From Mytilisepta virgata (Eukaryota > Mollusca > Bivalvia > Mytilida > Mytilidae): a DNA stretch of 64,000 bases. This document shows, piece by piece, positions 27,801 through 62,229 of this stretch; position 1 is the first letter of the stretch; every line of letters begins with the position of its first letter. The notes below the pieces were generated by a model. It saw only the letters and a list, made by a program, of their open reading frames with translations, was not told the DNA's origin and did no database searches. The stretch covers positions 54,812,230 through 54,876,229 of the forward strand of contig CM051516.1 in NCBI GenBank assembly GCA_028015205.1. Direction: 5' to 3'. Made by a program: the position numbers and the translations under genes.

Positions 27801-30800
27801 GCAAGGATTCTTCGATTAATAATATATCTGATTGTCTACAAGGAATCGCTTGTGGCATCTTTAATATAGTGACGAATTGTTCAGTGGATAATAAACTTGA
27901 TCTCTTCAATCCGGGGAACGTTTCTATAATTAAGATATTTATGCCGCAATTAACCGGAAATTATTCCATTAATCAGTCATCAATCAACTTCAAAATTAAT
28001 ATATTTGATTCTCAAAATACCTCTTTTGAATTTGAAGATAGTTATGTACTAAGATTGTCTATTTATAATATTTACAAAGTTCGGAAAATCTTTACTTGTA
28101 ACAGAATTTATCTGGTAACCAGAATTTCAAGCAGTGTAAGTGAGTTCATTTGTAAATCTTTTAACGACGGTTGCTTTGGAGACAAATGTATTAACAAATG
28201 CCCGGTAAACTGCGAGCAAGCTATGTATGATCATGAAACAGGATCATGCATTGTATGTAAATCAGGGTGGTTTGGCGAAACATGTGAAAAACAGTGCTTG
28301 AGGAATTGTGATAAATGTATTGACAATACTTCATGTATACAATGTAAAAATGGATTTTATGGAAAGAATTGTGAGCTAAATTGTCCGGTCAGTTGCAAAA
28401 CATGTTTAAAAGATGGCAAAGTATGTCCATTGTGTACTACCGAGAATGATTTTGGATCTCTTTGCGGGTGCAAAGTCGATGAATGTCAGAGTTATAACCC
28501 TTTACGTCAATGTACTGCTTGTAAGAAAGACGGGTGGTATGTTTCAGAGGGAGGTTGTTGTCCTTGTAGTGAGAACTGTGTTGGAGGAAATATGAACTGT
28601 GATAACAGGACAGGTGTATGCATCGATGGCTGTAAAGCAGAATATTACGACGAGAGATGTTTTGACAAATGTAGCAACCACTGTACGGGAAATAGCACCA
28701 TTTGCAACTTTACTACGGGAGAGTGCACGAATGGATGCCGGGAATCCTTTAATCTTTCTGATTGTAGTTATGATTGTTCTTTACTTTATCCTTACTGTAG
28801 CAAATGCTCTTATTTTTCTGATAGTGCATATGAGACTGCAAAATGTACAGAATGCATAGATGGATACTACATGCCTGCCAAATATAGGCTTACTAATCAT
28901 GTCCAGTCATACCTAAGTAGCTATTGCTTTCCATGTGATCATTGTCTAAATAACAAGTGTAATGGTAGAAGTGGATTTTGTAGTGAAGGATGTAAAGGCA
29001 TCGGTCAGTACAATTCTGAAGAGTACATAATGGGTGAAAAACATTGCATGCTTAAATGTTATACATGCTATGACATGAAGTGTAATTTTACAGACGGTTC
29101 ATGTTTAAATGGTTGTGTTCAGGGATATTATGGACCTTTATGTAAAACCAAATGCAGTTCGGCATGTTTAAACCACACCTGTTTAGAGTCGTCTGGCCAA
29201 TGCGTTACATGCGAGGCAGGATATCATGGTCACACGTGTAACCTCACTTGTGGTCAATGTGCAGAACCAATATGTCATCAGTTTACTGGCGAATGTGAAG
29301 GTATGTAGAAGTCATTTTTAATCCAATTACATCAACAGCTTTGACACAATATTACCAGTTAACATTCCGTACGACCGAATGTGTCATTTGTTCAAAGCCC
29401 GACTGATACGGTTCATGACCAGTTGTATACCTGCCCATGATGTATCATTGTTAACCAGTGGTACCTTGTTAAAATCCATTTCCAAAGCATAAGTGCAACG
29501 ATTTAGGACTTTTTAAACCTTTCACATACTATTCTGTAAATAGTTCTTCCAAGTACTCTCAGTTTGATTGTTATATTAAAACCTCATCGAGGACTGCAAA
29601 AAAAAAGAAATAAGTAGACATTTTATTGAAAATCCAAAACACATTTGTAAAGAGTAAACAACTTCAGAAAATGTACATTCGATTATAGTTAAATTGAGTC
29701 AAACAAAATCCTATTTCATTAAATCCTATTTCAATAAAGAAGAAATTAAAACTACACAAGTCAAAAAACAATTAACAATGAAAAATTAGCAATTTCACAA
29801 TTTCAGTCTGAAAATTGGAACCCTGAATCAAATTTTAAAATTGAAAACCTTAATGCACATCTACACGTAGTGAAGAACAATATTATAAACAAATGAAACC
29901 ACTGAAACAAAAAATGAATGAATATTTCCAGAGACAATGCAAGATTAGCAATTTCACCATTTTCGGTCCCAAAATTGGAACCCTTAATCGATTTTCAAAA
30001 TTAAAAACCATTTTTACACATCTACAGATAATAAAGAACAATATTATATACAAATAAATTTGCTAAATCTAGATGAAAACTGAAAGAGGAGTTTAAGTCA
30101 CAAGCTTAAATTTACTATGTCCAAAATACAACCCCTGTGGGCCTCAAATAGTGAAAATCAAAATTCTGAAACCTTATTGCGCATCTACATACAGTATGTG
30201 ACAATATTGTATAGAAATTAAAAGCATAAAATGAAAAATGAATAAGGAGTTAGTCACGAGCTTAAATTTCCAGTTTTCGAAATTCGATCCCTGTTTTCCC
30301 CAATTTTTAAAATTCTAAAACCTTATTGCGCATATACATACAGTATGTGATAAAACTGTATAGAAATTAAATGCATGACGTGAAAAATGAATGAGGAGTT
30401 TAGGTCATAAGCTTAAATTCCAATTTTTTTTTTAAATTCGACCCATGGGGACTCCAATTTTTAAAAATCAAAATTCGAAAACCTTATTGCGCATCTATAT
30501 ACAGTATGTGATAATACTGTATAGAAATTAAAAGCATAAAATGAGAAATGAATGAGTAGTTTAGTCAACAAGTTTAAATTTCCAGTTGTCGAAATTCGAC
30601 CCCTGTGGGCCCCAATTTTTGAAAACCAAAATTCTAAAACCTTATTGCACATCTACATACATTTTGTGAAAATACTGTATAGAAATTAAATGCATGAAGT
30701 TAAACATGAACGAAGAGTTCTGGAGACTAGATTATCTAACGGACGGACAGACGGACGGACGAACAGACGGGCGGACAGTCGGTCAGTCAGGCGGACAAAC

Positions 30801-33483
30801 GGACCGATTACAAATATCCCCTAACTTCATTCGAAGTGCGGGGATAATGATCCTTATGGTATCTAGTATGAAGTTGTGTTTTATTTTTTTAACTGTCGAG
30901 AAACATGGCCGCCATGGCTAAAAATAGAACATAGGGGTAAACTGCAGTTTTTTGGCTTATATAAAAAACTAAAGCATTTAGAGTAAAACTGATATGTGGT
31001 AAAAATATTCATCAGATCGAGATCTACCTGCCATGAAATTTTCAGACGAACCAGTCAACCCTTTGTTGGGTTATTGTCCCTGAATTGTTAATTTTAAGGA
31101 CATTTTGCAGTTTTAGGGCATTATCTTGAATATTATTATAGATAAAGACAAACTGTAAACAGCAAAAAATATTCAACAAAGTAGGATCTACAAATAAGTC
31201 CAAAATCGCTAATTGGCCCCTTCTAGAAGATTCTGCCTTTTAAAGACGTTTTTTCACATTTTTTCATCATCTTTGTAAAAATCTTCTTTGATACTACAGG
31301 ATAAATTTCAGCAAAACTTAGACTGAAAGATTCTTAGGGTTTGTAGTATGAAGTTTGTGTTTTATTTTCTTGTCCATCGAGAAGCATGGCTGCCATGGCT
31401 AAAATAGAACATAGGTGAAAAATACAAGTTTTGGCTCATATCTCAAAAACGACGGAGCTGGCTACCAAAATTTATCAGATTTCAAACTATCGACTCTTTT
31501 TGTCTCTACTACTTTTAGATGGATGCTTACAGGGATTTCATGGATTAACTTGTGAACAATATTGCAATACATGTGTCGGAAATGATTGTGATGTCGACGG
31601 GAATTGTTTGCATGGGTGTGTTCCAGGAAGATATGGTAAATCCTGTGATAAAACCTGTGCAGATAGCTGTTTTATTTGTCAACCAGAGCTTGGTCATTGT
31701 ATTATAAAGAATTCATCAAAAATCGATGTTACTCACTTTTGGAATGTTTCAAGACAATCTTGCCAGGTTGGGTGGTTTGGTGTATATTGCAATATATCAT
31801 GTGGAATTGGTTGCCAGGAAACAGACCGCAATGTATATAATTGTGATAGATTCACAGGTTTCTGTCCTCATTGTATAAAAGGTTACCACGGTATCGGTTG
31901 CTCAGAAGAATGTAACCATACATGTGTGGACCGGGATTGTAATAGAGATGGAACATGTCGGAAAGGATGTTTGTTCCGATGGCAAGGGAAATATTGCCAC
32001 AGTAAGTATGTCGTGTATGAAAGCAGATGGAAGGACGTCGATTGTCTTGAGTGGGGTTTCAAATTTAAGTCTTACAACAGAATGAAAAAAATGATGTATT
32101 GTAGCATATACCAATTGTCTATTTTATCATTGTATTATTATATTATATGCAATTGAAATGGTTGCTCTTGATTAATGAAAATTTTAATCGAGAATGTGGT
32201 GAAAAATAATAATTATAATGATCGTGGTTTTGTCCATCACGGTATAAAAATTCATGTTACCTCTTCGGACAAGCAATTTAAAGTCTGTCTGTTTAGTGTG
32301 TACCGGGTAGTTGATTCATATGAAAACATGTTCATCTAAATCTTTTAAACATATACATGAATTTTAAGACATTAAGACACCTTTCTTTTGAAAATACATT
32401 AGAATGGTCCAAATTTTAAATTCCTAATTACATTGTTATTTATTATGTGATTAGATGGATGGATGGATTATTGTTTAATGTACAGTGGCAAATATTACAT
32501 GCATATCAGGACGAGAACATGCTGTTGTGATATGAATATGAGATCTGCTTAGTGCTAGACCGATATTCTTCACGATAACAATATCAATTTTGAACTTGAG
32601 GAATTAAAAGAAAAAAAAACAAAATTCCTAACAGATATATATATATATTATCATTCGTTGTAGAATATTATCCTGAGACGCTTTTTGAAAGGCTTGCTGG
32701 AATTTTATTTGCTGTTATGGCTGTTATTGTTTTTGTGGCTAGTGTTGCTTGTATTGTTTTGAAGAAGAAGTAAGTAAAACAGTCAACAACAACTGTGATC
32801 ACTTACGAAACTCTTATTCTCTTGCCGGTGTTTACCTTCTAGTAATAGTATCAGAAACAGTTTTGATATTATCAAATATGGCATCATTTCATTTTGAACG
32901 ATGGTCTATCAAAATTTGAAAAGGCAAGTTTAACCAGGGTGTCCAATAAATTCTTTGATACCAATTTTGATGCACAAGGTGTGAAACATTCCGTCGATTT
33001 ACGACTCATCGCTTGTGTTCAATGCCTAAAATGCTATGTTGTGTGTTTTAATATAATATGATAAACCCTTAAAACGCAAACTTCAACATGTTAAGCAGGT
33101 TTTTTTTACCTTAGGCAAATACAAATGTAGATTCTGATATTAGTATTTTTGCCCATTTGTTTGCAACATATACATGTATATCGACCACACATGAACATTT
33201 CAAACTGTAAACGTTAACTAAAGGAATGTAAATGGGCTTGGTTTACCAGCAACCATATCTGAATGAATTCCAAATTCGAACCCCAAGTCCGAAATTTGTT
33301 CACCGAAAACCGAGTTGCACCAAACACATGATTGCATGAATGAAAGTAGTTTCCTCCGAACGAATGAACTATTGATGATCTACTAAATATTATGATTTCT
33401 ATTTCAGAAGAGAAGAGAAGAAAATCCATATCAGAAGAAGGTGTGCTGTTCAATATAAACACAATATGAGTACTTTTGTTTAG
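24814..33483 (+). CDS. Multiple-EGF-like type I membrane receptor (MEGF/SREC-like), five exons
   Basis: Exons 24814-24895, 27267-29300, 31519-32001, 32664-32769 and 33408-33483; every join keeps frame (phases 1,1,1,2) and uses GT-AG. They encode 926 residues ending in TAG. Residues 1-23 are a signal peptide (MDTIGFQFCVV start, A at -3). Residues 28 to about 325 are an ectodomain I do not recognise, with many N-x-S/T sequons. About 329-860 is a chain of Cys-rich EGF/laminin-EGF-like repeats with GWFGETC, GFYGKNC, GYYGPLC, GYHGHTC and GYHGIGC signatures, as in MEGF10/11 and SREC scavenger receptors. A 23-residue hydrophobic helix (about 877-899) is followed by a 27-residue basic tail (KKKREEKK start) without NPxY or YxxL motifs, so signalling would need a partner. 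Introns 1 and 2 are filled with repeats. A role in recognition or clearance of particles is inference from the family. A further exon missed by eye is possible. Confidence 0.85.
25885..26725. repeat. 168-bp tandem-unit family, opposite orientation, in intron 1 of the EGF-like receptor
   Basis: Five units with TCTGAAACCACTGGACCAAT, GGTCCTTAGATGGTCCTCTT, CCAAGATGGCCGCCACAGCC and TTAGTTTAACATAGG. This is the reverse complement of the family at 5735-6668. The upstream 25690-25880 (TTGTTAATTTTAAGGAAATT block) is shared with 31080-31210 and 48965-49100. Confidence 0.65.
29785..30850. repeat. Pearl-like tandem-core repeat with GACG microsatellite
   Basis: Six to seven diverged units of about 165 bp (CAAAATTCTAAAACCTTATT, GCGCATCTACATACAGTATG and so on) are followed by (GACG)n at 30738-30805 and the end CATTCGAAGTGCGGGGATAA. 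Same family and orientation as the right half of 22337-23820. It fills part of intron 2 of the EGF-like receptor gene. Confidence 0.65.
32453..32590 (-). mobile_element. Truncated SINE (same family as 44810-45171)
   Basis: Contains the (TGGA)n tail end and the body segment with TTGTTTAATGTACAGTGGC and TGCTAGACCGATA, but lacks the tRNA-like head. It lies in intron 3 of the EGF-like receptor gene. Confidence 0.65.
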
Positions 33484-35240: not shown

Positions 35241-35666
35241 CAGACACTTTCAGATTAGACATTAACATTCTTGTGTTTTTAGATGTTGGAACTTTTATTT
35301 ACGTTATCTACATCATGCTAGATTGTGACTTATTGGACATAATATTCTGTTTGGATTCTTGCAACAGTGAAGAGAAGAATTCCGGATAAAGAAAAGACAA
35401 AAGGGTCGGACATATATTTTAAAAGTTAAGTTGACATTTCAAATTGTATAATATTTCTTGTAAACTTGTGTATAATAAAACTTGTTAAATTTTATTATTG
35501 ATTTGTGTCTTTTGTTGGCTACAATTTAAAGGTGATTTCTGGCCGTAACAACTGTAACATCTTGAACTTGTCATGTGTACAGGTGTTATCGATTACTTTC
35601 GCACAAAATACATGTATAGATATATAACATTAATTTCAATTATAATACAATTTCAAGTTTGGGACC

Positions 35667-38600
35667 ATGGGATATTTTTATGTTGCCGTGGTAATGGCAG
35701 TCTGCATAGTTACACCAACTGCTATAGAGATAACAGGTAGTAAGTATTATATCAATAAAATATCAAGTACTCAAATCATGCTAAAACAATATCAATGTAC
35801 ATATATGTTGAATTCTAAGGAGTGAATATCTCGATTTATTACTTGCAAAATTTGGTAATCCACTCTCAATGTAATTTATTTTTAACTTTCTTGTCATTTT
35901 TTTATATAATATATCTATAGAGACGATAGTCCTCACTCACGGCTTAATTCAATGTTGGTTTTTCTTGTTTTGTTTTCCTTTTAAAAGTTTTTGGCATTTT
36001 GGTGAACTGATTTGGTGGAGTCATTATATTAAGATAAAAAAAAAATAACAATCCGTATTCATGCCGTATTATCTCAAGCCGAGGATCTTTCTACCATTCG
36101 CTTAAACATAAATGTCAAGTTGGTGCACAAATTTTCCAATCTAGTGTGTGATAAAGGTTGTGTGATTATTGTATAGGTTAGCCATAAGCTATAAAGGGTA
36201 GCAATTTAGGTCACGAGTATGCGATTTGGGATATTCGATAAAGGGGTGCAATACGAACGAAACAACAGTCAAGTGCTTTATTATAAAATACATTCATTCT
36301 TAGTTGAGAGATTTTGAGCTCAAATACAGATGACCAGAGAGGTAAAGCAAATCAAAGTTATAAGAACAGGTATATGTATAACTGTGCACGAATGTGATTC
36401 TTCCAGTGTGTGAGAAAAGCAGTAATAAACATTGTGTACATTTTCCATTGTCAATCATCATTGAAATTACAGTTGACTCTCGTTATCTCGAACACATTTA
36501 AGTCGACATTCCGGGTAGTTCGAATTATCTGTTTGGACCCTCAACAGCAGTAACTACACAGAATTACTCCTGATATCTCGAATTTTCGCTAAAGTCGAAC
36601 AAGATTTTCAGGTGTCAATGGATTCAACATAACGAGACTTGACTGTATTTTAAAACAATTTTCACGAAGAGATATGTATGAATGTTATTTCCTTTTCATT
36701 AGATGTTGCTACGATGGAAAACATCCAGGTATGTGTAGATGACTGTAAAAGATATGCTGAAACAGGTAATACGTACACCAATAAAATCTTAATATGTTTA
36801 TCATTATTTTTTTGCATGTGTTGTTTCTCATTAGCTATTTGTATTCATTTAATTTGTGCGTGTGTGCGCGCGCCTTGAATTATTTGTATGGTTCTCCTAA
36901 TACATGTGATAGTTTTATGGTAGATTATTAATTCTGTATAACTTGCAACTTGTATAATTTTCAGTCCTTGAATATGCACATTGGTTGAAATGCCAAAGTT
37001 ATCTTTTTAATCTTTATACAGAATATTAATGCTTACTTTTAATTATTTATCAGTATTAACCTATACTTTGAAAGGACATTGTTTCATTAGCAAATTAAAC
37101 CAGTGTTGTTTATTTCAGCTTTCGACCTTGGAATTTGTATAACGGGTTGCAATCGTAAGTATCTAAAATGTCTGTAATGCATTCCCATGATAAATCTTTG
37201 GGTTTTCAGTTTTAAAAGTTGCTTTCATTGATTTTTTCACTCAAGCCTATAGCAGCTAAGTATGAAAGTTTATACAAAGATTACAAAATATATACATATC
37301 AAAAAATATTTTTTATGAATCTAAAAATATTTTTCTAACTCAAAAGGTTTATATTTTAAATTTTAAATTTTGCGCTCATGGTTCTTTTTATGATTACGTT
37401 TGTATGTTTTTAAAGTGTATTCCTTTTTTTTCTAACAGCTGGTGATCTAAATGATTGTATTGAATGCTGTAAGATGTGTGGGGAAGGTAGTATCTCTGAT
37501 TATGTTAATTTCATTTACTTTATTAAAGTTTTTTTTATATTGATCGTATTGATCATGACATTTTATTTACCAGTTTTGCTGAAGCGCAAAAAAATCGAAA
37601 AATAATTCAGAATATTTCAATCATTCATGTACCCACTCAGCAGAACTACGCGAGGAAATACCATCCTCCCAAGTCAGGGTTTTGTATCTACGTTCGTTCC
37701 TACAAACCCCTGACAACATTCATTCATATTTTACGGGTCGGAAGTGAACGATTTTCATTGGTTACTTCTCAAGGTCAAAAGAGATCCATTTGCGTCGTAG
37801 GTAGAATTTTCTAGGTCACACACCAGGCGGCGATATGTTCGACCCGCAAAATATGAATGTGTGATGTAGGGGTTTGTAGGAACGAACATGGATACAAAAC
37901 CCTGACTTGGGAGGATGCAAAATACTAACTTAACAAGCAAATATTATTTGTCTAAATTTATGCATTCAAGCGATAATCTTTTAACGTTCCAAATAATCTC
38001 TGTGAATATCAGGATAGTCCAGAAATGCTAGAAACTACGATGATCATACTCTCGTGGGTTTGTATCAATCCGTAGATATTCTATCAGTGTTTGCAACAAA
38101 CGCTCCTTGGTAAAAATATTGACACATCGAAAACACATGTAGAAAAATGTCTATTTTTGTTGTTGATAATAGTGATTATATTACTTAATTATAACCTTAC
38201 GAGCCGTGAATTGTTCAATGTCTCTGGACCTATAATAAAATGACATAAATAAAGAACATGTTTAAACATAGACACGTGGTTAGCACTTTACCATCTTTCA
38301 AAATTTGTAATTTGTCTTTGAGTCTACAATTATTGAAATTTATTTTGACCAACGAATTTATTCTTATATTCTAAGGTGATATAAGTGACTGTTTTCAAGT
38401 TTGTAAAGTAACATATAACTACCAAAGTAAGTATTAAAAATGAGTCAAAAAATGTATTTTGTTATGTTGGTTGTTTTGTGCGTGCTACAGGATTACTGCT
38501 GGAGATCATAAAATGACTTCTTATACATGTACTGCATGAGAACTTTGAACAAGCATAGTTCTCGTAAAAGAATAGTTCAAGACAATGATGTTCTTAGCAA

Positions 38601-41600
38601 TAAAAAGTTGTGTATAATAAAGACTAAAAAATAAGTTTGAGATTCTAATATATACTCTCTCAAAAAAGAAACGCAACATCAGATTATCTTTTTGAAATAT
38701 TATTTTTCCGGACAAATAACCAATAAATATCAAAATATATGTACACATGATCATAATTACACCTTCATAAAAAGTTTCCAGGTACAATCATTTAAATTCA
38801 TCCACCCGTAAACGACTTTGGTCGCAATCTGGGACACCCTACGATTTACGCATTGCCAAAAACTGGGTCGACTTTCACGTGCAAATCATGGGTTATTTTT
38901 TAGCTCAGTCAGTCGGTATAAAAACCCGGTATTTCTTTTCATGAATGCATTCGTAAAATAAAATTCTGATGAGGTGACGCTATGCCAAGGTTAGACGCTG
39001 CTACCCGGAATATCGCTATCGGACGACTAGAGGCCGGAGAATCACAGAATGCTGTTGCTGTAACGTACAATGTTCATCGTAGCACAATTTCACGCCTTTG
39101 GGGACGCTACCTGCAGCTTGGTACTACGACAGATCGGCCACGTTCAGGGCGCCCGCGTGTTACAACCAGGGCGCAAGATCGTTACATCAGACTTTTCCAT
39201 CTGCGGAATAGGACTATTGCTGCAACAGAAACAGCTGTAAACGTCCCTGGGTTGCGCCGTATATCAGCACAGACAGTACGCAATCGGTTACGTTCTCATG
39301 GATTGAGGGCAAGAAGACCTTACTTTGGAGCAACACTGAGACGCCAACACCGCCGAGCGAGGGTTAGATGGTGTACTACAGTTCGTGCATGGAATTTACA
39401 GAACTGGAGAAGAGTATGGTTCAGCGATGAGTCACGTTTTCAACTGGAAAAGCGAGATGGTCGCATACGTGTGTATAGGCGCCGAAACGAACGTTTTGCG
39501 CAAAACTGTGTTGTGGAGAGAGACAATTTTGGCGGAGGCAGTGTTATGATGTGGGCCGCTATTTCTTATGCCAGAAACACACAGCTGATACATATCCAAG
39601 GCAATCTGAACGCTGTTAGGTATAGAGACGAAATTTTACGACCTCATTTATTGCCCGTAATTGACATTCGGAGAGAAATTTTTCAGCACGACAATGCCCG
39701 ACCACATACAGCACGTGTAACAGTAGACTTTTTAGAACAACAGAATGTCAATGTGATCCGTTGGCCGTCACGATCACCCGATCTTAATCCAATTGAACAT
39801 TTGTGGGATGAAGTGGATCGGCGCGTGCGCCAACGACAACCACCACCGCAAAATCTGCAACAATTACAGCAGGCACTTCAGTTTGAGTGGCAAAGGATAC
39901 CGCGTGTTCGAACTCAGCGTTTAATTCAATCTATGCCAAGAAGAGTCGGGGCTGTGTTACAAGCAAATGGTGGACATACCAGATATTGACAATTTATGAG
40001 TGATTTATTGACAATATGTGACAAACTGTGATATTCCAAGGTAAAAGAACTCATGAACAAGAAGTGTGCCAATTTTTGCATTCCTGTGTAAATTATTTAT
40101 ATCATAAATTATGAAAATAATATATGAAGTAAATTTCCTATTTTCTGTATGTTGCGTTTCTTTTTTGAGAGAGTATTATATACATGTTATTTTATATCAA
40201 TTTCATATGAGACACAACGAATATGTATTTCATGGGTCAACGTGCAAAGAATACAAATAAATAAATAAAGCTTTGATATGCACTCAAAATAAACTTTTGC
40301 CATGATCATGGAATACTGTTTATTGATTTACAACCATTAAGTAAGTTAATGCACCCTTCTAAGCGAACTTCAAGCTTCATAAACGATAGCAGATTATAAT
40401 TTGTTTGTTTGTTTGTTTAGTTCGGGGGGGGGGGGGGGGGGTTACGCCGATTTCAGCACCTTTTGGCTATTTCGCGGCAGCCAGTTTTTATTGGCTGAGG
40501 AAACCGTAGTACCCGGTAGTAAAATTGGCAAGATCGGACTCGAACACAATCCGCCACAGGTGAGATTCGAACTCACAACCTCCGTGTTGACAGGTTAGTG
40601 TTCATTAGTAGTCATGACGAACTATGTAGACCACTCGGCCACCGAGGCCCCTATAATTAGTTGTAAAATGTTAAAATTGAATGCCTTAACCGACAGATTA
40701 TCGAATATAATTGACAAATAGCATTCGCGAAGTAAAGGTTCGAGCGAGCGTGTTTATAGTCCAGTCAAACTAAGTTTTAACCACAAACTAATTGCAAAAG
40801 AAAATGTTTTAGTTCTAATCTATAGCATTAAGCCCCAAATATACACAGAAAAAAGTCCCATAAAATCTAACTTGAGCAAAACTCAAAATCAGCATGTTTA
40901 ATTTCCTATGGAACATTGGAAAGGGGAGATAACTCTGCAAAAATTAGTCTTTTTTTTGTCAGGTTTTTGTCGATTTTCTTAAAATTCATGTAAAGTATGA
41001 TACTTTGATGGGGTTATAACTTCGTATTTGACTATATTATATAATCTTCTGCTCATGAAATGTACAGAACCGAAGTGTTATGGGCATTTTTATTTTTTTT
41101 TGCACATTTTTCATTAAAGAAATTGCAAATTTGTGGCTTTGTGACCATTTTGAAAAAATAATGTGAAATTTTGGTATTGTTTATATCTGAAAATTATATT
41201 TTTTCAGCATCTACCTTGTTTAAAGAAACTTTGAACCACAAAAAGAAGAATGTATGCTTAATTATTTTTATTAAATTTGAGATTCTTTACCTTGACATGT
41301 TGAAAAATTTAATAAATGGTCAACTAATGAATTACGAAATCTAGGTTGTAGCTTGATAAAAGATATGAAAACACCTTTAGAGTTGTTTGTTATACTCTAA
41401 AGACGGCTAAAATATCAAGAATCAATACATTCTGATGAAAAGAAGCGGTAAAGTTATAATTTTATATCAATTTTTATTGATATTTCTGCATTTTTTGCAG
41501 AGTTATCTCCCATTTTCAATGCAAATCTCCATAGGAATTTTAAAATCGTGATTTTTTTAGTCTTCCTCAAGTTAGATTTTGTTAGACTTTTTTCTGTGTA

Positions 41601-42450
41601 TATTTGGGGTATAGTGCTTAAGAGTAAAACTTAAAAATCTTCTATTGCAATTACTTTAAGGTTAGGGTCAAATTTATGCTAGATTGACTGGACTATTACA
41701 CCGTCTGTGAATTATGTTGAATTTAATAAAGTAAAAAAAATACCAAAAGGAGGGGGGTCGAAACAACTGACAAACTCCGGAGGACAACGAAAACAATACA
41801 AGCACTACAATTAAAAACTAAAAACATATGAACAACATGGACCTCAGCTAAAAAACGGGGGTAGACTCAGGTGCTCCCGAAGAGTAAGCAGTCTTTGCTT
41901 CCTGCAGGACACCCGTCATGCTGCCCATGTCAAATCCGGTATGAGGAAGGGACAACATCAATGGAACAGGTCCATTTTAATATGTGAAACGGTTTTTTCA
42001 TACCTGTCAACCAAGTCATGATAGCGTCATTTAAGATACCGATACTTAAACTAAATTTCTTGCGAAAAAAGGGAGTAGTATTGAAATTTCCCTCATATAT
42101 TTCCTTTGGAAACAGAAAAAAATCTTTTTAGGACGTGATGATCAAATTGAGATTGCAGCAATCGAATAAGAATATTAGATTCTCATGATATTCAAGAGAA
42201 AGCCTTACCAACTATTATACCTATAAGTAAAAATTGAAAAGGTGTAAAACTGATACCATGCCAAAAATATACGTACTATCTTGTGAGGCTGACAATTTAA
42301 GATGTTTTGCTTACAAGGATCTTTTTTAATCAAATTTAGACATTATGATATTTAATAACCATGAAAATATATATATATATATATTTCTTTTTCTGTCTTT
42401 CAGGTAAAAAGATTCATAAAATCATACAATATGTACATTCAGATTCTTAG
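35667..42450 (+). CDS. Small secreted CxxxC-repeat protein, gene A (six micro-exons)
   Basis: Exons 35667-35739, 36703-36765, 37119-37154, 37439-37486, 38376-38426 and 42404-42450. All five introns are phase 1 with good borders (GTAAGT or similar). The product has 105 residues. Exon 1 (ATG in GACCATGG context) encodes a signal peptide starting MGYFYVAVVMAVCIV. Exons 2-5 each encode one C-x3-C unit: CVDDC, CITGC, CIECC (plus a later Cys) and CFQVC, usually preceded by an acidic or small helix-compatible stretch. The terminal exon encodes a short KKIHKII tail and TAG, with AATAAA at 42487-42492. The mature chain has 10 Cys. I know no family with this plan; the spacing allows a disulfide-stapled helical hairpin, but that is inference. 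The closest relative is gene B next door, with exon-for-exon correspondence. An intact Tc1-like element, a SINE and a foldback element lie in the last intron. Confidence 0.78.
36470..36645. mobile_element. Tigger/pogo-like MITE in intron 1 of gene A
   Basis: 176 bp flanked by TA on both sides. The left end CAGTTGACTCTCGTTATCTC and the right end (reverse complement CAGTCAAGTCTCGTTATGTT) are imperfect inverted repeats. They resemble the CAGTTGAACCTCGATAT type ends of pogo/Tigger transposons. No coding capacity. Confidence 0.75.
37662..37917. mobile_element. Foldback MITE in intron 4 of gene A
   Basis: About 80 bp at each end are inverted copies, for example CATCCTCCCAAGTCAGGGTT left and AACCCTGACTTGGGAGGATG right, around a spacer of about 95 bp. 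The target duplication could not be resolved. Confidence 0.75.
38655..40173 (+). mobile_element. Intact Tc1/mariner (DD34E) transposon
   Basis: A 1,519-bp element bounded by TA on both sides (38653-38654 and 40174-40175). Its terminal inverted repeats are at least 25 bp and identical, beginning CTCTCTCAAAAAAGAAACGC. It contains one uninterrupted transposase gene in the same direction as host gene A. It sits in the last intron of that gene, between exon 5 (ends 38426) and the terminal exon (starts 42404). Perfect ends and an open frame point to recent insertion. Confidence 0.95.
38982..39989 (+). CDS. Tc1-like transposase, full length
   Basis: 335 residues. Residues 1-50 are a helix-turn-helix (NVHRSTISRLWGRY), followed by a GRPR-type linker at 56-59 and a second DNA-binding helix region (RISAQTVRNRLRSHGL). 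The catalytic triad is intact: D149 in WFSDESRF, D237 in QHDNARPH and E272 in DLNPIEHLWDE, with 34 residues between the second D and E (DD34E). A basic stretch at 107-135 may act as nuclear localisation signal. Length is normal for Tc1 transposases (about 340). The enzyme would cut and paste the element into TA sites; no stop or frameshift is seen. Confidence 0.95.
   Translation: MPRLDAATRNIAIGRLEAGESQNAVAVTYNVHRSTISRLWGRYLQLGTTTDRPRSGRPRVTTRAQDRYIRLFHLRNRTIAATETAVNVPGLRRISAQTVRNRLRSHGLRARRPYFGATLRRQHRRARVRWCTTVRAWNLQNWRRVWFSDESRFQLEKRDGRIRVYRRRNERFAQNCVVERDNFGGGSVMMWAAISYARNTQLIHIQGNLNAVRYRDEILRPHLLPVIDIRREIFQHDNARPHTARVTVDFLEQQNVNVIRWPSRSPDLNPIEHLWDEVDRRVRQRQPPPQNLQQLQQALQFEWQRIPRVRTQRLIQSMPRRVGAVLQANGGHTRY
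40402..40651 (-). mobile_element. Second tRNA-derived SINE type with C-tract tail
   Basis: On the minus strand the head has A box TGGCCGAGTGGTC, typical of Leu/Ser tRNA, and a T arm GTGAG-TTCGAAT-CTCAC with a perfect 5-bp stem. A unique body, a C tract of about 19 and a CAAACAAACAAA tail follow. Target duplication TATAATT is found at 40395-40401 and 40652-40658. The acceptor stem does not pair, so it is not a working tRNA gene. Confidence 0.8.
40757..41695. mobile_element. Long foldback element, Harbinger-like target site
   Basis: Imperfect terminal inverted repeats of more than 150 bp, outermost TAGTCCAGTCAA. They include shared blocks CCCCAAATATACACAGAAAA and GGGAGATAACTCTGCAAAAA in opposite orientation. 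TTA flanks both sides (40754-40756, 41696-41698), the target size of PIF/Harbinger elements. No ORF of note. In the last intron of gene A. Confidence 0.7.
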
Positions 42451-42486
42451 GAAATGTGTGTACTCCGTATAATTCAGAAACTGAAC

Positions 42487-42492
42487 AATAAA
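42487..42492 (+). terminator. Polyadenylation signal of gene A
   Basis: AATAAA 36 nt after the TAG of the gene A terminal exon, and about 105 nt before the ATG of gene B. Supports the exon at 42404 being a true terminal exon. Confidence 0.55.
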
Positions 42493-42597
42493 TTGTTTAT
42501 TGATTAAATGAGAGGTTCAATCTGTCACATTTGTACCATCTTGTATGTGTATCATCCTTTAAATTATTACATTAAATCTGTTTCAAATTTCTCTGAG

Positions 42598-45500
42598 ATG
42601 TCTTTTTATGTGTATATGATTATTACTGTCATTGTTATTATTAACACCCGAGCAAAAGAGCTTTTGGTAGGTAAGTTAACATTTACTGCACCCTCAAAAG
42701 AAGGACAAAAGATACTACAGAAGCAAACGGTTAAAATTGGAAATTATAACTCCAGAGACAGAAACCAGGGATAGCTCAACAACGAGGACAGATTTTTTTA
42801 AATCACATCACCCCGGGCTACATATTTTACCGAAAAGAACTTGTAATATATTTTTTTAAACATTGTAAAATACAAAATGACCCAAAACCTAAACGAACAT
42901 GTACAAGAAGGAAAGTAATCATCAGATGACTTGGAAGGATTTGCATGTCTGCCTTGTTCACGTTAGAAATCCGTCAAGTTAGGACAGGCGATGCGTCATG
43001 TTAAGTAAAACGAGAGACATTGTAAGAATCAATAACTAGTCTCATTTATGAGATAGAAACTACGAATATGTCAATCGCAAGCAATTAAGTCCGTAACGAA
43101 CCAGGTGATATGAATGTACTCTATACATAGTTGACGTTGGAATGCCACAAAGAACAAAGCAAGTGTCCGGAATCTGAGGTAGTGGTTATCGGAAAATGTT
43201 TTTAAAAATGTACTTTTATGTCTACATTAGGAACCGTCTTGCTTTTTCCCACCCAAGGCACTGATAACGTATTTCATCATTGGACTGGGAAAGCGGCTAA
43301 AGAACCGTCCCGGTCTTTTATAAAATGAGAGCGTTTCGCTCATTGTTGAAAATAGAATCATGTGACGTTACTTCTCTGTTCAGTTGGGTTTTTTTTTTTG
43401 GTTTTTTTATTCAGTTCCATGTCGTTGTGTCACCAGTACATAAACATCACACCAATATAGTACCTTATACTACTTGTTGGATATTTTAGCAACCATGTTT
43501 GTAATAAAGATGATTTCAATCGTATATTCCAGTCTTTTATAAGTATAAATCAAGCTGCCGAGGTGTGTGTGTGTGTTTGGTCGTCTCTTTGATTTAAAGA
43601 TCTTTAAATTTCGCTGGGATAGAAAATTGAGCAATATCGATTAGTGTAATACCAGGTCATAATTCCGTTTTAGAAGAAAGATAAAAGAGACTTCTACAAA
43701 ATCAAAAGCAAAAGGTCAAAATAGTGATACCTAGAGAGAATTAAAAAAATAAATCCAAACGAATTGAAAACAAACATTTATATACAAAACGAAAGCAATT
43801 AAAACAGCACAACTTACAGCACCTAGGAATGTAAACAATTTCTGCTCCGGTAACCCGTAACAATGCAAATGGTCCAAGGCCATTCAAATGGCAAGTACAA
43901 TGAGGCGTCAAATTTCTGTTAAGTTTTGAAATCGAACTGAAGATATCCAGTCGCATTTCTGAGAGGAAAATTTAATCAAATAAATACTGTTGACGATTAT
44001 AAGTCATTGTATATAAACAAAGGCTGTACATAAAGCTGTCTTATAAATACCTTTGATATAGTTCTTTTAATTGATTTCTGGTGATGAAAGGATAGCAACA
44101 TACGTTTATGCTGTTGTCTTTTTTTATTTATTCATTTTATTTTGTTTTTTTTTGTTTTTGTTTTTTTTTTTGTTGTTGTTATAAATACATGCAGTTTGCG
44201 TTATAATTTATTCTTTGTTTTACTTTTTTGAATTAAGAATATTTTTTTTCTAAAACAAAAGGAGTTTAGTAAATGATTTTGCTATAGCAATTCAATATTT
44301 TACCCATAATTGAATACTTGTGGGTTAGGGAAATTAGTCTACTATATAATATTCACGCTTTTGCTCTGACGATGGTAAAGCGAATCAAACTTGCGTCTTA
44401 CTTATTCATTTTAGCCTGTTCACATATCATTATATTGATCTTTCAAGACAACTAAGACAGTCCTTCAAAAACTTTTTCGATATCTGTAAGTGTTTTGTGT
44501 ATTGTTTTATTTACATACATTTGTATGTTATATTTTTTGTATACATGTATGTATTTCCTAAGCATGTAATTATTTCTTTGTTATATTTTATAAAAGCAAT
44601 TTTTTAACTATGTTAGTGTAACTGTTTCTTCAAATTTATTTATTTATATACAGTTGAATCTCGTTGTCTCAAACTCTTTTATCTCCAAATAAAAACTCCT
44701 GATATCTCAAAGTAATGTTCCGGACCCTAGATTAAATTTTGCACTATATTTCGTCCTGATATATCAAACTCCTGTTATCTCAAACTATTTTGTTGGTCCC
44801 TTCCACTTTGATGGATGGATGGATGAATTATTGTTTAACGTCCAGTGGCAACCAGGTGCATATCAGGAGGAGAACATGTTGATATGATAATGAATATGAT
44901 CCCTGCTTTGTACTAGACCGACACGCTAAGTCGGATTTTTACTGTGCTAGCTCACGAGGTAACTGTCCACAGGAAGACATATCACCTCACTCGGACACAT
45001 TATACTGACTCCGAGCCGACCAGTCTTTGGTCTTACTCCTAGATGCCGCGTGTTTGGTGGAGAAGCATCAAATACCAATTTTAATGTCTTTGGTTTGACC
45101 CGGCCGGAGATCGAACCCGCGACCTTCCGCACTCGGGGCGAGCACACTACCACGAGACCACCGAGGCGGTCTTCCATTTTGAGATATCGAGAGTCAACTG
45201 TATTCGTTTATGCATTTGTCTATTTGTTCATCAAGAGTAAACGTTTACCTGCATTTGTGTTATTATTTCTATACAGAACCTACCCAAGGATGTACCGTCA
45301 ATTGCAAAGGAATACAAGAAGGTAACTTTGCATAATATTAAGGCTTTGCAAAACAACAAATTCAAACTTAACAAATATAAATTCTGCTTAAATAGAGCAT
45401 AAGCAGTGAGCTCGATTGATCAATACTATTATGGCTAGAGAAAGAATATAACAGGGATATAAAGAATTCTGCAGTGTACTAAACCAATATACTGTGGTAT

Positions 45501-48500
45501 AAAACATATAAATTCGAAAACTTAGTTATGATTTTTTCTAACTTGACTTTCATTTATCTGGAAAATATGTTATAAATGGTCATCTAGACGAGTTTTTGTA
45601 ATTTGTGTACATTAGTAAAACGATTAGAGATGTGAGCTGCTGTAAACTTTTTCTCGGTTATGGACTCTGTTTCATCTTAGAACAATTATATGGCACGCCG
45701 TTTTTATATTTATTCAAATTCCAAGATATCTTATTTATTTAACAAGATATCTTATTAAGTATTAAGATATCTTTAATTTTTATAAGATATCTTATTTAAT
45801 TTGAAAGTAAATAAGATATCTCTATAAGTTAATAAGATATCTCTATAAATTAATAAGATATCTCTATTAGTTAATAAGATATCTCTATAAGTTTATAAGA
45901 TATCTCTATTAGTTTATAAGATATCTCTATTAGTTTATAAGATATCTTATTAAATAAATAAGATATCTCTATTATTAACTATATAAAAGATATCTTATAT
46001 AGTTAATAAGATATCTTATAAATTAATAGAGATATCTTGTTAACTTATAGAGATATCTTATATATTTAATAAGATATCTTATATATTTAATAAGATATCT
46101 TATAAATTAATAGAGATATCTTGTTAACTTATAGAGATATCTTATATATTTAATAAGATATCTTTATAACCAGTTAAATAAGATATCTCTATAAGTTAAT
46201 AAGATATCTCTATAAGTTTATAAGATATCTCTATTTGTTTATAAGATATCTCTATTAATTTATAAGATATCTCAATTAGTTTATAAGATATTTTATTTAA
46301 CTAAATAAGATATCTCGAAATTGAATAAATATAACAACGGCGTGCCATACAATTATAGCATAGAGCAGCTTTCGTTTAAACGTTTGTCAAATCTTCAGTG
46401 TTTGAAATTTCACAATATCAGTTGGATTATATTTTAGGTCTTAAATGTAAAAAATGCATTCAAGGCGGACACTAACACAACTAAAGCTAAACTATTCCAT
46501 GAAGGAGTTTCCAAAAACCAGTCCACATGACTCAAAATCTTTCTAGAGTAGGGATTTCAGAGCTTGTCAAACAGTATAGCCGGTCTACCAGGAAACTAAT
46601 AGAACAGAATAGATCGACTTTTAATTGTTGAGATCCTCTTTAAAGCAGCAAAAAAATGTCAAATTCAAAATCTGCTCACGTGACCCTATGATTTAATTAA
46701 AGAAAGGTTAGAACTGGTCACAAACGTTAAAGACTAAATTAGGGTTACTATTTTTGTTAATTTACTCAGTCTACAGGTTAGAAATGAGTCATTTTACGCA
46801 AATTTTGTTATTGCGTGTAAAGCATTACTTAAACTAAGCAAGTCTTTTTTCAATGGCTCAGTAATGATCGTGAAGATGAATATACCAACAATTTCTTCGT
46901 CAGTTCTGACATTTCATTTAAATTTTTGTAGGATTCGAATTAGGAATGTGTATTCTGCAGTGTAAGCGTGAGTTTTTTTTAAACAATATTTATTAAAAAA
47001 ATATATGGTGTTGAGACGATCAATACAATATCTATAATGTCCATAGAGAATCTTGAAAGAACATTACAACGCAAATGTTTACAATTAAACAAAGATTAGT
47101 AATCTTAAAATCAAAATTTGCAAATAAAACATTTTGCAAGGTTAAATTATATTTTCTTTAGAAATGTTTAATTTCACCCTAATTTTACTAACATGGACTA
47201 CAGAAAGCTACGTTTTCTAGTTGTCGATGAGTCCCGACCTTTTCCCGATTTCTAGACGTTGAATTCAATTGTAATTTGTATTTTTAACAGCCAAGAACCT
47301 TAACACATGTGTGGAGTTTTGTGAAATCCACGCAGAAGGCAATGGTGAGTGTATTGATATTAAGACTTTTTCAATTGAACTCTAGATAGGTTAAGGGGTA
47401 TTGTTTTGTTTTTTTGTTTTTGTTTTTCTTCTGTTTAGATGTGTTTGCATGATATTTCCTACTAATATTGTTACTGAACAGTCAGTGATTTGTTTTTTTT
47501 TTGTTTGTTTGTCCCCCTCCCTTCCCCCTTTTTCTGTTTTTTTAAATTTTTTTTCTGTTTTGTTTTTCTTCTTTTTATATTCTGTTGTATTCTTGTATGT
47601 GAATGAATGTGAAGTTATCATTATATGACCCAATTGCCACTTCCCTGGTGAATTAATAATATTTAAAAAATAATGCAATTAATACATGTATGTAAAAAAT
47701 AGTGCAAAGTATTGATTCGGTATATATGGATTTTATAAAGGCGTTCGATAAGGTCCCTCATAAAAGACTAATTAGGATGCTAGAAGCTTATGGGATAAGT
47801 GAAGAAATCACTTAGTGGGTTGAAATTTCTTAAGTGACCTAAGGCAGGAAGTTTCCGTACACGAAAGCAGATGGTGACAAGTGGTATCTCCTAAGGAAGT
47901 GTCTTAGGTCCAGTTTTGTTTGTCGTCTATATTAATGATATGTGATATGCCAGATTGTGTTAATTTCATCCTATGAAGTGCCAAGTGGTCAATTTAACGC
48001 AAAAACAGTCTGAAGATAAGAAAAAAGACCAATATCATTTGTATAACCAAAAAGGAGAAGAGGTGAAACTAGAATACTCAGAGGCAGAAAAAGACATAGC
48101 CCTGGTAGTAGTGGATCGTTCCTCCAAGCTGTTGTCTTAAAAAAATGATTGTAAACAATTCCAACAGGTCCTGTAACATGGCAAACAGGACAAAATAGTG
48201 GTAAAAGTATAAAAATGGAGCTTTGTTTTATCCCCTATGGCCTGTATAATGCTGGAAATGTCTTTAAATGTGTTTTTGGAACACCCTTCAAAACAAATAT
48301 GGCCGAATATATGTATGCTTAAAGAGACGATATAATGAAGGTTAATAGAATAATGCTAAAAACGGAATATATCAAACAAAAATTAATCGCACCCCCTCCC
48401 CCCACTCCCATAGAAAAAAACCTCAAATCATCCAAAAATGAAGTTTTATTGTATCCCCCAGGGTCTCTATAATGCTGGAAATGCCTTTAAATGCGTTTTT

Positions 48501-50471
48501 GGAACACCCTCCAAAAATTTGGGCAGGGGTTCCCCTAGACCCCGACTAACCCGCCGGGTCTGGGGGGGGGGGGGGGGGGGGCATGCAGTAAAAAGTCATA
48601 TTTTTAGCTCACCTGGCCCACAGGGCCATGTGAGCTTATGCCATCACTTGTCGTCCGTCGTCGTCGTAAACTATTTCAAGAATCTTCTCCTCTGAAACTA
48701 CTGGGCAAAATACCTTCGAACTTTAACTGAATGTTCCTTACGGTATCTAGTTTATAAATTGTATCTGAAGTTTTGATCTAATAAAAAACATGACTGCTGT
48801 TGCTAAAATTAGAACATAGGGGTCAAATGCAGTTTAGGCTTATATTTCAGAAACCAAAGCATTTAGAGCAAAACTGACATGGATTAAAAATGTTCAACAG
48901 GTCAAGATCTACCAGCCATGAAATTTTCAGATGAATCGGACAACCCTTTGTTGGGTTATTGCCTCTGAATTGTTAATTTTAAGGAAATTTTGCAGTTTAA
49001 GGTTGTTTTCTTGAATATAATAATAGATAAAGACAAACTGTAAACAACAAAAATGTTCAGCAAAGTCAGATTTACAAATAAGTCAACATGACCAAAATCG
49101 TGAATTGACTCCTTATAGTAGTTTTTGCCCTTGAAAGATTATTTACATGTAAACAGAAAATAATGGTCTGACATGTCACAGATGTTTAGGGCGTTACTTG
49201 AAATAAATTAAATGGTAGCAATACAAGTAAAATGGAGCGTCACGGGTCAAGGTCATTGAAGAATTCCATAGCAACCGATGAAAAAGTCCCTAAAAACAGA
49301 TAAAAAAGTCCCTAGCAATCATATATATTTGGATTAAGGACCTTATAATTTACCTGTACAAGTCAAAAAGAAAGGTCAAGAGTCAAGGTCATTGAAAAGG
49401 TCTATAGCAACCGATGAAAAAGTACCTAGCAACCATATATATTTGGGTTCAGAATCCTACAATTTACCTGTTCAAGTCAAAATGGAAGGTCAAAAGTCAA
49501 TGCCATTGAAAAAGTCCATAGCAACCGATGAAAAAGTACCTAGGAACCATATATATTTAGGTTAAGGACTTTATAATTTACCTGTAATGTCAAAAAGAAA
49601 GGTCAAGAGTCAATCCCATTGAAAAAGTCCATAGCAACCGATGAAAAAGTCCCTAGCATATATATTACGGTTAAGGACCCTAAAATTTACCGGTTCAAGT
49701 CAAAATTGAAGCCTTTTGTTTTTATTTTTAACGAATGGATTTTTTTCTCCAAAACTTAACTACATCTCGGATTTCGTTTTAAAATCGTTTAACGTATAGT
49801 TACTTTATTTCCATGCCAAATTAATCACTCGTTTTTTAAGTACAGATATAATAAAAAAATATCCCTTAATCATTCTTGAGTTGCCTTCAATGGGTAGTAT
49901 AAAGTTAAAGAATGTAAATTAATGATCTTTTATTCAACAGCCAATTCTAAAACAGAACATGTATCCAGTTCTTCTTGTGTGCAGATTAGTATATTTGTTT
50001 GTCCTACAATAGCTGTAAAATCCATGTTTTCTTTCCTTTTTGTAGACGAGGTCCTAACAGACTGCCAGCATGTCTGTAAAATAGGAGATGCAACGTACAG
50101 TAAGTTTTTTTTTGTCCCTTTGAAATAAATTGTTTTATTGTGATTAAAACTCTAGTACCTTATGCATTTGGAGAAAAGGATCTTTTCTTCGTCCGATAGG
50201 ACCGTGACCAACCTCTTGAAAACCAATGCGACTTAGCCACTGAAAGCTAAAATTCATGTGATTGAGAGAAATGCAAACTTTATCAACTGAAAATTACAAT
50301 GAATGTTTAAACTAGCTAACAGCAACATTTATATAGTTTCTTAGACTGGAATTATATTTTATTGTATATTCCAAATACATTAAGGGGGCTAAAGTAAAAT
50401 ATTTATTATGCAGATATGTTTTAATTTTCACAGACAAAAAGCATGGCAAGGCGAGAAGACGTAGACGCTAG
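42598..50471 (+). CDS. Small secreted CxxxC-repeat protein, gene B (six micro-exons, Arg-rich tail)
   Basis: Exons 42598-42670, 45277-45321, 46932-46967, 47291-47344, 50046-50099 and 50434-50471; all introns phase 1, product 99 residues. Exon 1 is 73 nt, exactly as in gene A, and encodes the signal peptide MSFYVYMIITVIVII; exon 3 is 36 nt in both genes. Exons 2-5 each carry one C-x3-C unit (CTVNC, CILQC, CVEFC, CQHVC), giving 8 Cys in the mature chain. Aligned pairs with gene A include FELGMC/FDLGIC and NLNTC/DLNDC. The terminal exon encodes KKHGKARRRRR and TAG, far more cationic than gene A. An in-frame upstream ATG at 42508 would add 30 residues, but the one at 42598 starts the signal peptide and matches gene A. 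The gene begins only 147 nt after the stop codon of gene A. Function unknown; a secreted defence or signalling peptide is possible. Confidence 0.76.
44651..45200. mobile_element. Tigger/pogo-like MITE in intron 1 of gene B, interrupted by a SINE
   Basis: Left end CAGTTGAATCTCGTTGTCTC at 44651 and matching inverted end GATATCGAGAGTCAACTG ending at 45200, each next to TA. The SINE at 44810-45171 is inserted inside it, so the MITE is the older of the two. Same end type as the element in intron 1 of gene A. Confidence 0.75.
44810..45171 (-). mobile_element. tRNA-derived SINE, full length
   Basis: Read on the minus strand it starts with a polymerase III A box (TGGTCTCGTGGTAG) and a B box (GGGTTCGATCTCC), then a body and a (CCAT)n-type tail. 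Target duplications TTCCACTTT (44801-44809) and TTCCATTTT (45172-45180) flank it with one mismatch. Partial relatives lie at 9220-9475, 20535-20730 and 32453-32590. Confidence 0.8.
45690..46348. mobile_element. Foldback element built of GATATC tandem repeats
   Basis: 659 bp. The ends ATGGCACGCCGTTTTTATAT and their inverted partner match over 28 bp with one mismatch. Direct 8-bp duplications ACAATTAT at 45682-45689 and 46349-46356 suggest a hAT-type insertion. The inside is made almost only of about 20-bp units such as AAGATATCTCTATAAGTTAAT, each centred on the palindrome AGATATCT. It lies in intron 2 of gene B. No coding capacity. Confidence 0.85.
47713..47985 (+). pseudogene. Fragment of a non-LTR reverse transcriptase
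   Basis: Translation gives VYMDFIKAFDKVPHKRLIRM followed by LEAYGISEEI, then a stop and frameshifts, then SVLGPVLFVVYINDM. These are motif A and the motif B region of a Jockey/CR1/RTE-like reverse transcriptase, broken several times. It lies in intron 4 of gene B, in gene orientation, with no sign of activity. Confidence 0.8.
48597..49140. repeat. Element end AGCTCACCTGGCCC and shared 3' body
   Basis: Begins AGCTCACCTGGCCCACAGGG, then GTCGTCCGTCGTCGTCG, the counterpart of the end seen at 6600-6668. The body block at 48965-49100 is also found at 25700-25850 and 31080-31210. In intron 4 of gene B. Confidence 0.6.
49190..49710. repeat. Tandem repeat of about 118-bp units
   Basis: Four to five units with CATAGCAACCGATGAAAAAG, CCTAGCAACCATATATAT and TTAAGGACCTTATAATTTAC. 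In intron 4 of gene B. Confidence 0.65.
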
Positions 50472-60900: not shown

Positions 60901-61347
60901 TGAAGATTGAAATTAAATGGAATAAGCTATCATTTCCATTTGCAAAAAAGTGAAGCTGACTACATGTATAATAGTTACCTGCCGAATATCTTCAAATGTT
61001 GTCATTGCTCGTTTGAATTCTACTACACAACTTTCACAAAATCTAAACGGCCTAGCCTTTTCAACAGAACACTGAATAAACTCTGCTGCATTCTTCCCAA
61101 ATTCTTTAAGAAAAGCTGTACATACATCATAAACTGGAACACTTCCGTTGCCTAAACTGCCACCTAATGGACTATTATCGATAAAATAACTTAATTTTGC
61201 TAAACTTTGTTTCATTTTGTAGTCTAAATTCTCATGTGGTTCTGAATGTGCAATACCAGAAGTGTGTGAAAATGATTTATGGCTTTCTGCTTTCGTATCT
61301 TTGGAAACTAAATATATAATTAAGGCGATAAGGTGCATTAGTGTCAT
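54904..61347 (-). CDS. OSTM1: OSTM1 (osteopetrosis-associated transmembrane protein 1), ClC-7 beta subunit, six exons
   Basis: Minus-strand exons 61347-60979, 60662-60548, 59243-59086, 57039-56923, 55802-55637 and 55019-54904. Phases fit at every join, giving 346 residues, close to the vertebrate length of about 334. The start is the ATG at 61347-61345 (A at -3), opening a signal peptide MTLMHLIALIIYLV. Recognisable OSTM1 blocks are CSVEKARPFRFCESC in exon 1, LLKADRIQ and NCDGC (exons 2/3 junction), and CDKCLGEY followed by CMDLVDM in exon 4. A single transmembrane helix lies at about 276-294 (exon 5), then a short cytosolic tail ending TTKETYS. The many lumenal Cys and N-glycosylation sequons agree with the family. 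OSTM1 stabilises the lysosomal Cl-/H+ exchanger ClC-7. The exon 3 acceptor at 59244 was chosen over the one at 59233 because only it keeps frame and restores the CxxC. Confidence 0.9.
59255..59670. repeat. 29-bp minisatellite next to OSTM1 exon 3
   Basis: About thirteen copies of a 29-bp unit (ACTACACTTTTATACTGCCA plus CTAAATATA), with an exact 29-bp spacing between the GCCAC blocks at 59461 and 59490. On the gene strand it lies in intron 2 and ends about 10-20 bp before the exon 3 acceptor at 59244. Confidence 0.9.
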
Positions 61348-61434
61348 TGTGTTTTGGACGTTTTCCTCCTTCGCAAAATGAAACCGGAAATAAGAAAGGT
61401 AGCTCGAAAATGAAAGTACACATGTGATTCCCAC

Positions 61435-62229
61435 GTGACATTAACTGCTCAACATTTAAAAAAATAATAATGTTTAGTATATTATAAGTTATCCTCAGCT
61501 ATAATTTTATCCACTGCTCCTAACATTTAATAATGCTTCCAGCATTTCTACCAATTTATGAAATTCAATTTATTTTTTTTGCGGGATTACAAGATGTCAG
61601 CGTCCATGAAAATGTTACAAACTTGTAGAAGTTGTTTAAAATGTTTTAATTCGACACAATGTGTATCAGAAAGGTCATTAGCTTTCTTGTAAAAATTAAT
61701 ACATTTGAGTGTCAAACCAAAATGTTCCTATACCTATGGAAAACTAATTAAAAAACCACTAATAGATTTTCCTTAACAATAAAATGTAAAATTGGCAAAT
61801 TCTATATTTATGTTTATATTGAGAGGCATATCATGTGACTGAAAATCTTAATCATGGTGATTTGCTTCTCTTGAATTGTACTTGAATTTAGAAAATACAT
61901 GCACTCTCCAAGATCAGAATCTGGGTCTATTTGCCATATTATACCTGTTTCCCTAGGTCCGTTAATTTTGTGTTGTTATTCTGTATCTGTATCCAATGAA
62001 TTTCTGCCAATATAGGCACACCTCCGGTTTTGGAGTAAAAAGAAAAGTAATTCCAACACCACTATAGACAATAAATTCCACCACCAGTATATTTACACTT
62101 CAGATAATAAGTACACAGTTCACGATTTCAAATAAGATACTAATTTATGTAAAAGGTAAGAAATGCCTCATAACTATTTAAATACACTTAGTTAGTCTAG
62201 ACGATCTGCAAACACTCAATACGACCTAT
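61435..62229. other. Upstream of OSTM1, no gene seen
   Basis: AT-rich DNA between the OSTM1 start and the 3' end of the retrotransposon remnant. It should contain the OSTM1 promoter, but no clear TATA box or initiator is visible. Confidence 0.45.

Follow-up and report, generated by a model that had tools for sequence, protein, structure and literature searches.

Introduction

CxxxC pairs are known from helical-hairpin peptides (PMC7191063). The plant alpha-hairpinins are secreted, arise from multi-hairpin precursors and, in the five members with published cysteine positions, carry CxxxC pairs separated by linkers of 11–13 residues; in wheat and barnyard grass their genes are reported to be intronless (PMC7191063). 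The scorpion kappa-hefutoxins and OmTx peptides and the cone-snail peptides flf14 and vil14 share the arrangement C1X3C2-Xn-C3X3C4, closed by C1-C4 and C2-C3 disulfides into a helical hairpin, and one of these groups, that of the cone snails, is molluscan (PMC7191063). Here we describe a pair of adjacent genes at positions 35667–50471 of a 64,000-nucleotide stretch of the bivalve Mytilisepta virgata (assembly GCA_028015205.1, contig CM051516.1), hereafter the window. An earlier note on the window had pointed to the pair as secreted CxxxC-repeat genes against the background of the hairpin peptides, a background that the cited literature bears out. We favor, with moderate confidence, the view that they are tandem-duplicate genes for secreted proteins of ~75–81 residues, each made of four helix-sized units that form two stapled hairpins.

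Judged by design, the pair would appear to work most like the alpha-hairpinins and the scorpion and cone-snail peptides of similar fold. The present genes differ from the alpha-hairpinins in being animal and in giving every CxxxC half-hairpin a separate phase-1 exon, and no sequence match in Pfam or PDB assigns them to the alpha-hairpinins by homology. The scorpion and cone-snail peptides are single hairpins of 22–27 residues, whereas the proteins here have four units in 75–81 residues, a comparison made by description. In this reading, the products are disulfide-stapled, secreted repeat proteins to which every symmetric exon contributes half a hairpin.

Three other systems are similar in part. 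The schistosome micro-exon genes (MEGs) also encode secreted proteins in short symmetric exons that may be skipped. In MEGs, ~80% of the coding sequence lies in symmetric exons of 6–36 bp (PMC5825161), whereas the inner exons here measure 36–63 nt and only exon 3 falls within that range (36 of 318 and 36 of 300 coding nucleotides). The Mytilus CRP-I proteins are small, secreted and cysteine-rich, some with repeated cysteine arrays of the form C(X3-6)C(X1-7)CC(X3-4)C(X3-5)C, one or several of which lie in exon 4 (PMC10138031). In contrast, gene 2 has no CC, and the cysteines of both genes are distributed over four exons. Achatina CRASP, a helical, disulfide-containing protein that is secreted and restricted to its molluscan lineage, has cysteine spacings of 9-6-28 and 11-8-10, and no CxxxC pairs are reported for it in that source (PMC4596865).

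Architecture of the two genes

Exact-sequence location placed all twelve predicted exons at base level, forming two genes with the same six-exon plan on the plus strand. All ten introns begin with GT, end with AG and are in phase 1; the eight inner exons are symmetric (phase 1-1), and exon 3 is 36 nt in both genes, as the earlier note had proposed. The spliced frames are open through to the stop and encode 105 residues in gene 1 and 99 residues in gene 2. The eight inner exons were also recovered by the micro-exon scans described below, and the two third exons by a motif specific to exon 3.

Gene 1 has exons of 73, 63, 36, 48, 51 and 47 nt, separated by introns of 963, 353, 284, 889 and 3977 nt, so that 318 nt of coding sequence are spread across 6784 nt. 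Exon 1 (35667–35739) contains the ATG and the signal-like sequence MGYFYVAVVMAVCIVTPTAIEITG. It can end at either of two phase-1 donors three bases apart, GTAGTA, after 35736, or GTAAGT, which makes it 70 or 73 nt long; the length of 73 nt claimed for both first exons thus hinges, in gene 1, on which donor is used. Exon 2 (36703–36765) carries unit 1 (VCVDDCK), exon 3 (37119–37154) unit 2 (FDLGICITGCN) and exon 4 (37439–37486) unit 3 (GDLNDCIECCKMC). Whereas the other seven inner exons each encode exactly one CxxxC, as claimed, exon 4 of gene 1 encodes two that overlap (CIECCKMC). Neither this nor the second donor of exon 1 affects the overall gene plan. Exon 5 (38376–38426), preceded by an AAG acceptor and found by the scan that allows it, carries unit 4 (DISDCFQVCK), and exon 6 (42404–42450) the C-terminal tail and stop. 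An AATAAA at 42487–42492, 37 nt past the stop, is a possible polyadenylation signal of gene 1. It is a weak one, because every kb of the plus strand has on average 1.7 copies of AATAAA.

Gene 2 has exons of 73, 45, 36, 54, 54 and 38 nt and introns of 2606, 1610, 323, 2701 and 334 nt, with 300 nt of coding sequence across 7874 nt. Its exon 1 (42598–42670), supported by hydrophobicity as well as by location, contains the ATG and the signal-like sequence MSFYVYMIITVIVIINTRAKELLV. Units 1 to 4 follow in exon 2 (45277–45321; GCTVNCK), exon 3 (46932–46967; FELGMCILQCK), exon 4 (47291–47344; NLNTCVEFCE) and exon 5 (50046–50099; LTDCQHVCK), the last of which has an alternative acceptor before 50013 that preserves the frame equally well. 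Exon 6 (50434–50471) encodes the basic C-terminal tail KKHGKARRRRR and the stop. Four other first exons listed for gene 2 are all less hydrophobic than the one chosen. Among them, one starts at a further ATG inside exon 1 itself, and another, at 45210, is merely exon 2 extended backward across its own pyrimidine tract.

The sizes of both genes agree with the ~0.3 kb of code over ~7–8 kb given in the earlier note. Because this code lies in exons of 36–73 nt over ~7 kb, it is invisible to annotation based on open reading frames (ORFs), and in animals with large introns the number of secreted peptides is probably underestimated. The plan of one unit per exon also offers a clean test case for the growth of disulfide-stapled peptides through exon duplication.

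Several repeats lie within the introns. Intron 5 of gene 1 holds a Tc1-like element (38652–40176), whose inverted ends match perfectly over 28 nt and whose open frame of 338 codons matches DDE_3. On the minus strand of this intron, at 40552–40648, lies a tRNA-Ser-like match, possibly a short interspersed element of tRNA origin. Intron 2 of gene 2 contains a tandem array of ~24 copies of the 21-nt unit AAGTTAATAAGATATCTCTAT (45805–46316).

Relatedness and constraint

Judging from their sequences, both genes appear genuine and akin to one another. The whole proteins show 34% identity across the 99 columns of their alignment, with a pairwise E of 7e-18. With exon 1 removed, the alignment score is 133, whereas no score above 84 arose when the sequences were shuffled 5000 times with the cysteines kept in place. 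The claim of two paralogous, modular genes with a CxxxC on each inner exon is supported. At the level of units, pairs at the same position in the two genes are on average the most alike, and likeness exceeds shuffling whether the units compared occupy corresponding or different positions (0 of 5000 shuffles in either test). Likeness between units at different positions is expected if duplication of the unit exon preceded duplication of the gene. The first exons are modestly alike: among 5000 shuffles, 19 reach their ungapped score and 47 their local one.

Differences between the genes are concentrated at third codon positions. Among 36 gap-free, cysteine-anchored codons that do not encode cysteine, positions 1, 2 and 3 differ at 14, 12 and 26 sites (Fisher p 0.0004); over 93 protein-aligned codons, the counts are 40, 38 and 60. 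This excess points to selection on the protein, that is, to constrained coding sequence. The NG86 method gives a nonsynonymous distance (dN) of 0.61 with no usable synonymous distance (dS).

Encoded proteins and predicted fold

The eight units follow the consensus [L/I]xxCxxxC[K/N], with L or I at position -3 in seven and K or N after the second cysteine in seven. The number of cysteines after exon 1 is even in both proteins, ten in gene 1 and eight in gene 2. Exon 1 is, in each gene, the most hydrophobic among the listed first-exon candidates; of the earlier claim that the products are secreted, the hydrophobic, signal-like exon is supported, and secretion itself would follow from it. Counted from residue 20, the isoelectric point is 4.57 for the acidic product of gene 1 and 8.18 for the basic product of gene 2, whose C terminus has five arginines. 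This difference suggests divergence after duplication.

The linkers between successive CxxxC pairs are 12, 7 and 10 residues in gene 1 and 11, 7 and 13 in gene 2. The pattern CX3C-Xn-CX3C is present for units 1-2 and for units 3-4 in both genes. Three of the four outer linkers fall within the 11–13 range of the alpha-hairpinins, the outer linker of 10 in gene 1 is just outside it, and both genes have a middle linker of 7. Because the outer linkers lie near this range, units 1-2 and 3-4 fit stapled hairpins and the 7-residue linker fits a connecting turn. The cysteine linkers thus suggest two successive alpha-hairpinin-like hairpins per protein.

In the tandem-duplicate model, exon 1 would encode the signal peptide, while exons 2–5 provide one short unit each, probably a single short helix, and exon 6 provides the tail. 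Units 1-2 and 3-4 would close as two antiparallel hairpins, each stapled by C1-C4 and C2-C3 disulfides, and the 7-residue turn would join them. The pair would yield one acidic product and one basic, arginine-tailed product, which, by analogy, would most likely act outside the cell as stable ligands in defense or signaling. The family probably arose through duplication of exons and then of the gene, after which the encoded units would have stayed alike while the surrounding DNA diverged and gained a transposon.

Several observations weigh against this model. The gene models come from DNA sequence. Gene 1 does not have a typical -3 residue for cleavage after A19. Support for helices is weak: of 3000 shuffles, 601 reach the hydrophobic moment at 100 degrees and 280 at 160 degrees, so that neither value is significant, and with 79 at 120 degrees significance is marginal. 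The cysteine pattern by itself is described as unusable for classification or structure prediction (PMC7191063). At the nucleotide level, blastn aligns neither the exons nor the introns of the two genes clearly, so the relationship is visible only in the proteins; the matches between the gene regions are short, the best outside the overlap being a 25–33 nt element in both orientations, plus low-complexity sequence. Since the exons do not stand out, the duplication would have to be old. No AATAAA or ATTAAA was found within 500 nt past the stop of gene 2. Finally, only 147 nt (42451–42597) separate the stop of gene 1 from the ATG of gene 2, at a locus where introns reach 4 kb. This gap requires either a very compact promoter of gene 2, in or near it, or read-through.

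The same genes might encode a different fold, in which units pair 1-4 and 2-3, or between chains, or form a looser cysteine-rich repeat, for example in a matrix or binding protein. The weak moment test, the four cysteines in unit 3 of gene 1 and the poor predictive value of the cysteine pattern (PMC7191063) are all compatible with this alternative. On the other hand, three outer linkers lie within and the fourth next to the range of the five alpha-hairpinins, and the middle linker of 7 occurs twice. We consider a different fold possible, but the less probable outcome.

One transcription unit or two

The short distance between the genes raises the question whether they are transcribed together. 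In a single unit, exons 1–5 of gene 1 would be spliced to exons 2–6 of gene 2; the protein would then comprise four or eight units, and there would be alternative points at which it starts and ends. Because all junctions are phase 1, such a join would be in frame, and the gap between the genes is short (147 nt). However, gene 2 has a first exon of its own, matching in length and modestly similar in sequence to that of gene 1, and gene 1 closes with a terminal exon of its own, whose stop is followed 37 nt on by an AATAAA, though this hexamer is common here. A single unit is therefore unlikely. We attach still lower probability to a combinatorial system of one exon per helix, in which symmetric micro-exons of the two genes could be left out, used more than once or linked across the 147 nt between the genes; if it existed, it would produce a secreted repertoire of one to four hairpins, an animal counterpart of the MEGs on a disulfide-stapled scaffold. 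We thus retain two tandem genes as the preferred model.

Clustering of CxxxC exons

Candidate micro-exons were scanned for on both strands, the criteria being a pyrimidine-tract acceptor, a near-consensus donor, phase 1-1, a length of 27–90 nt, an open frame and a C-x3-C. In the first scan, a YAG acceptor was compulsory; after exon 5 of gene 1 had been missed, later scans were widened to AAG, and the same acceptor rule was applied to the flank controls. The YAG-only scan found seven of the eight inner exons and five matches in cysteine-rich ORFs at 28–32 kb, with none on the minus strand, whereas 20 first-order shuffles averaged 1.15. The strict scan allowing AAG found eight places on the plus strand of the whole window, which are the eight inner exons (nine rows, the ninth being a longer version of exon 5 of gene 2). 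On the minus strand, it found two places, within long ORFs near 3.5 and 15.2 kb. Thirty second-order Markov shuffles gave 0.43 on average, with a maximum of 3. In phase 0, the strict scan found three places on the plus strand and one on the minus, and in phase 2 none and one. At the loosest setting, the plus strand had 18 places, comprising the eight inner exons, nine in the cysteine-rich ORFs and one at 35283, and the minus strand three, compared with 2.17 in shuffles (maximum 4). Alternative spacings C-xn-C (n = 1, 2, 4–8) gave 0 or 1 in the region.

Flanking DNA of the same chromosome (~197 kb downstream and 39.5 kb upstream; ~473 kb-strand) contained three scattered strict matches. At this rate, 0.085 would be expected in a 13.4-kb stretch, and the Poisson probability of at least eight is 6e-14, or 1.6e-8 if the two places per 64 kb on the minus strand of the window are taken as the background. 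These probabilities are generous, since the CxxxC motif was chosen after inspection of the sequence, and the tests of relatedness stand apart from them. That splice-like signals and CxxxC came together by chance in an AT-rich region, or that the gene pair is dead, is very improbable and close to refuted already: the exons are short and individually of little significance, and the motif was selected after the data were seen, but the similarity of the inner exons is ordered across four units, the frames are intact, third positions are biased and the flanks are nearly empty.

Searches for relatives

In Pfam, no family matched the product of gene 1 up to E 1, and that of gene 2 matched only LETM2_N (E 0.15). 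PDB sequences gave no match up to E 10, with single sequences or with a profile; PDB codes exist for the five alpha-hairpinins (PMC7191063), whose inclusion in the searched PDB set is unconfirmed. In the protein database, one search returned one candidate, which did not score E <= 10, and the other none. Coverage there is poor: a 456-residue ORF from the window, used as a control, matched only two proteins, so absence from this database says little. Rfam gave 0 matches at the gathering score, and 41 pattern stretches in viral contigs yielded 0 confirmed. The idea that the pair founds a new family, put forward in the earlier note, is consistent with the absence of a convincing Pfam or any PDB sequence match, and at this database coverage stays unproven. 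In literature judged by titles and abstract openings, with subscription papers mostly outside the search, this gene plan is not described.

Within the assembly (1.03 Gb, 109 contigs), the gene 2 protein had three matches at E <= 1e-3, all to its own exons, and the gene 1 protein six at E <= 10, four of them its own. The two elsewhere (E 0.52 and 5.6) look repetitive and were taken as chance. No third copy was thus found in the 1.03-Gb assembly by searches that recovered only some of the known exons and that diverged copies would escape. The exon-3 motif TTYGANYTNGGNATNTGYAT matched 15 places in 1.03 Gb, compared with four for the reversed-pattern control, and two of the 15 are the third exons of the window. 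Twelve of the other 13 were inspected and none runs on as CxxxC; one of them (L034) runs on as CxxxxC, with no acceptor before it. At the remaining place (C5:12472439), the 20 matched letters are identical to those of an inspected one.

Upstream of gene 1, at 35283–35390, a tttttag is followed by a phase-1 stretch, VGTFIYVIYIMLDCDLLDIIFCLDSCNSEEKNSG, and then a stop. It contains the unit-like IxxCxxxCN, with a weak donor and an AATAAA at 35474. This could represent the last exon of a relative lying upstream, or have arisen by chance. The same loose unit profile, scanned over 24 flank loci on both strands, matched once.

Surrounding features

The plus strand at 27251–33460 carries the cysteine-rich ORFs, which are EGF-like by eye and include a transmembrane-like exon near 32664–32769; no Pfam match to them is better than E 0.08. 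On the minus strand, two intronless ORFs of 441 and 456 residues (3340–4665 and 15053–16423) are alike by eye and have only Pfam matches below the cut-off, WD40-type at E 0.0006 and NHL at E 0.006. Also on the minus strand, at 60913–61440, lies an exon matching OSTMP1 (PF09777) with E 6.8e-9.

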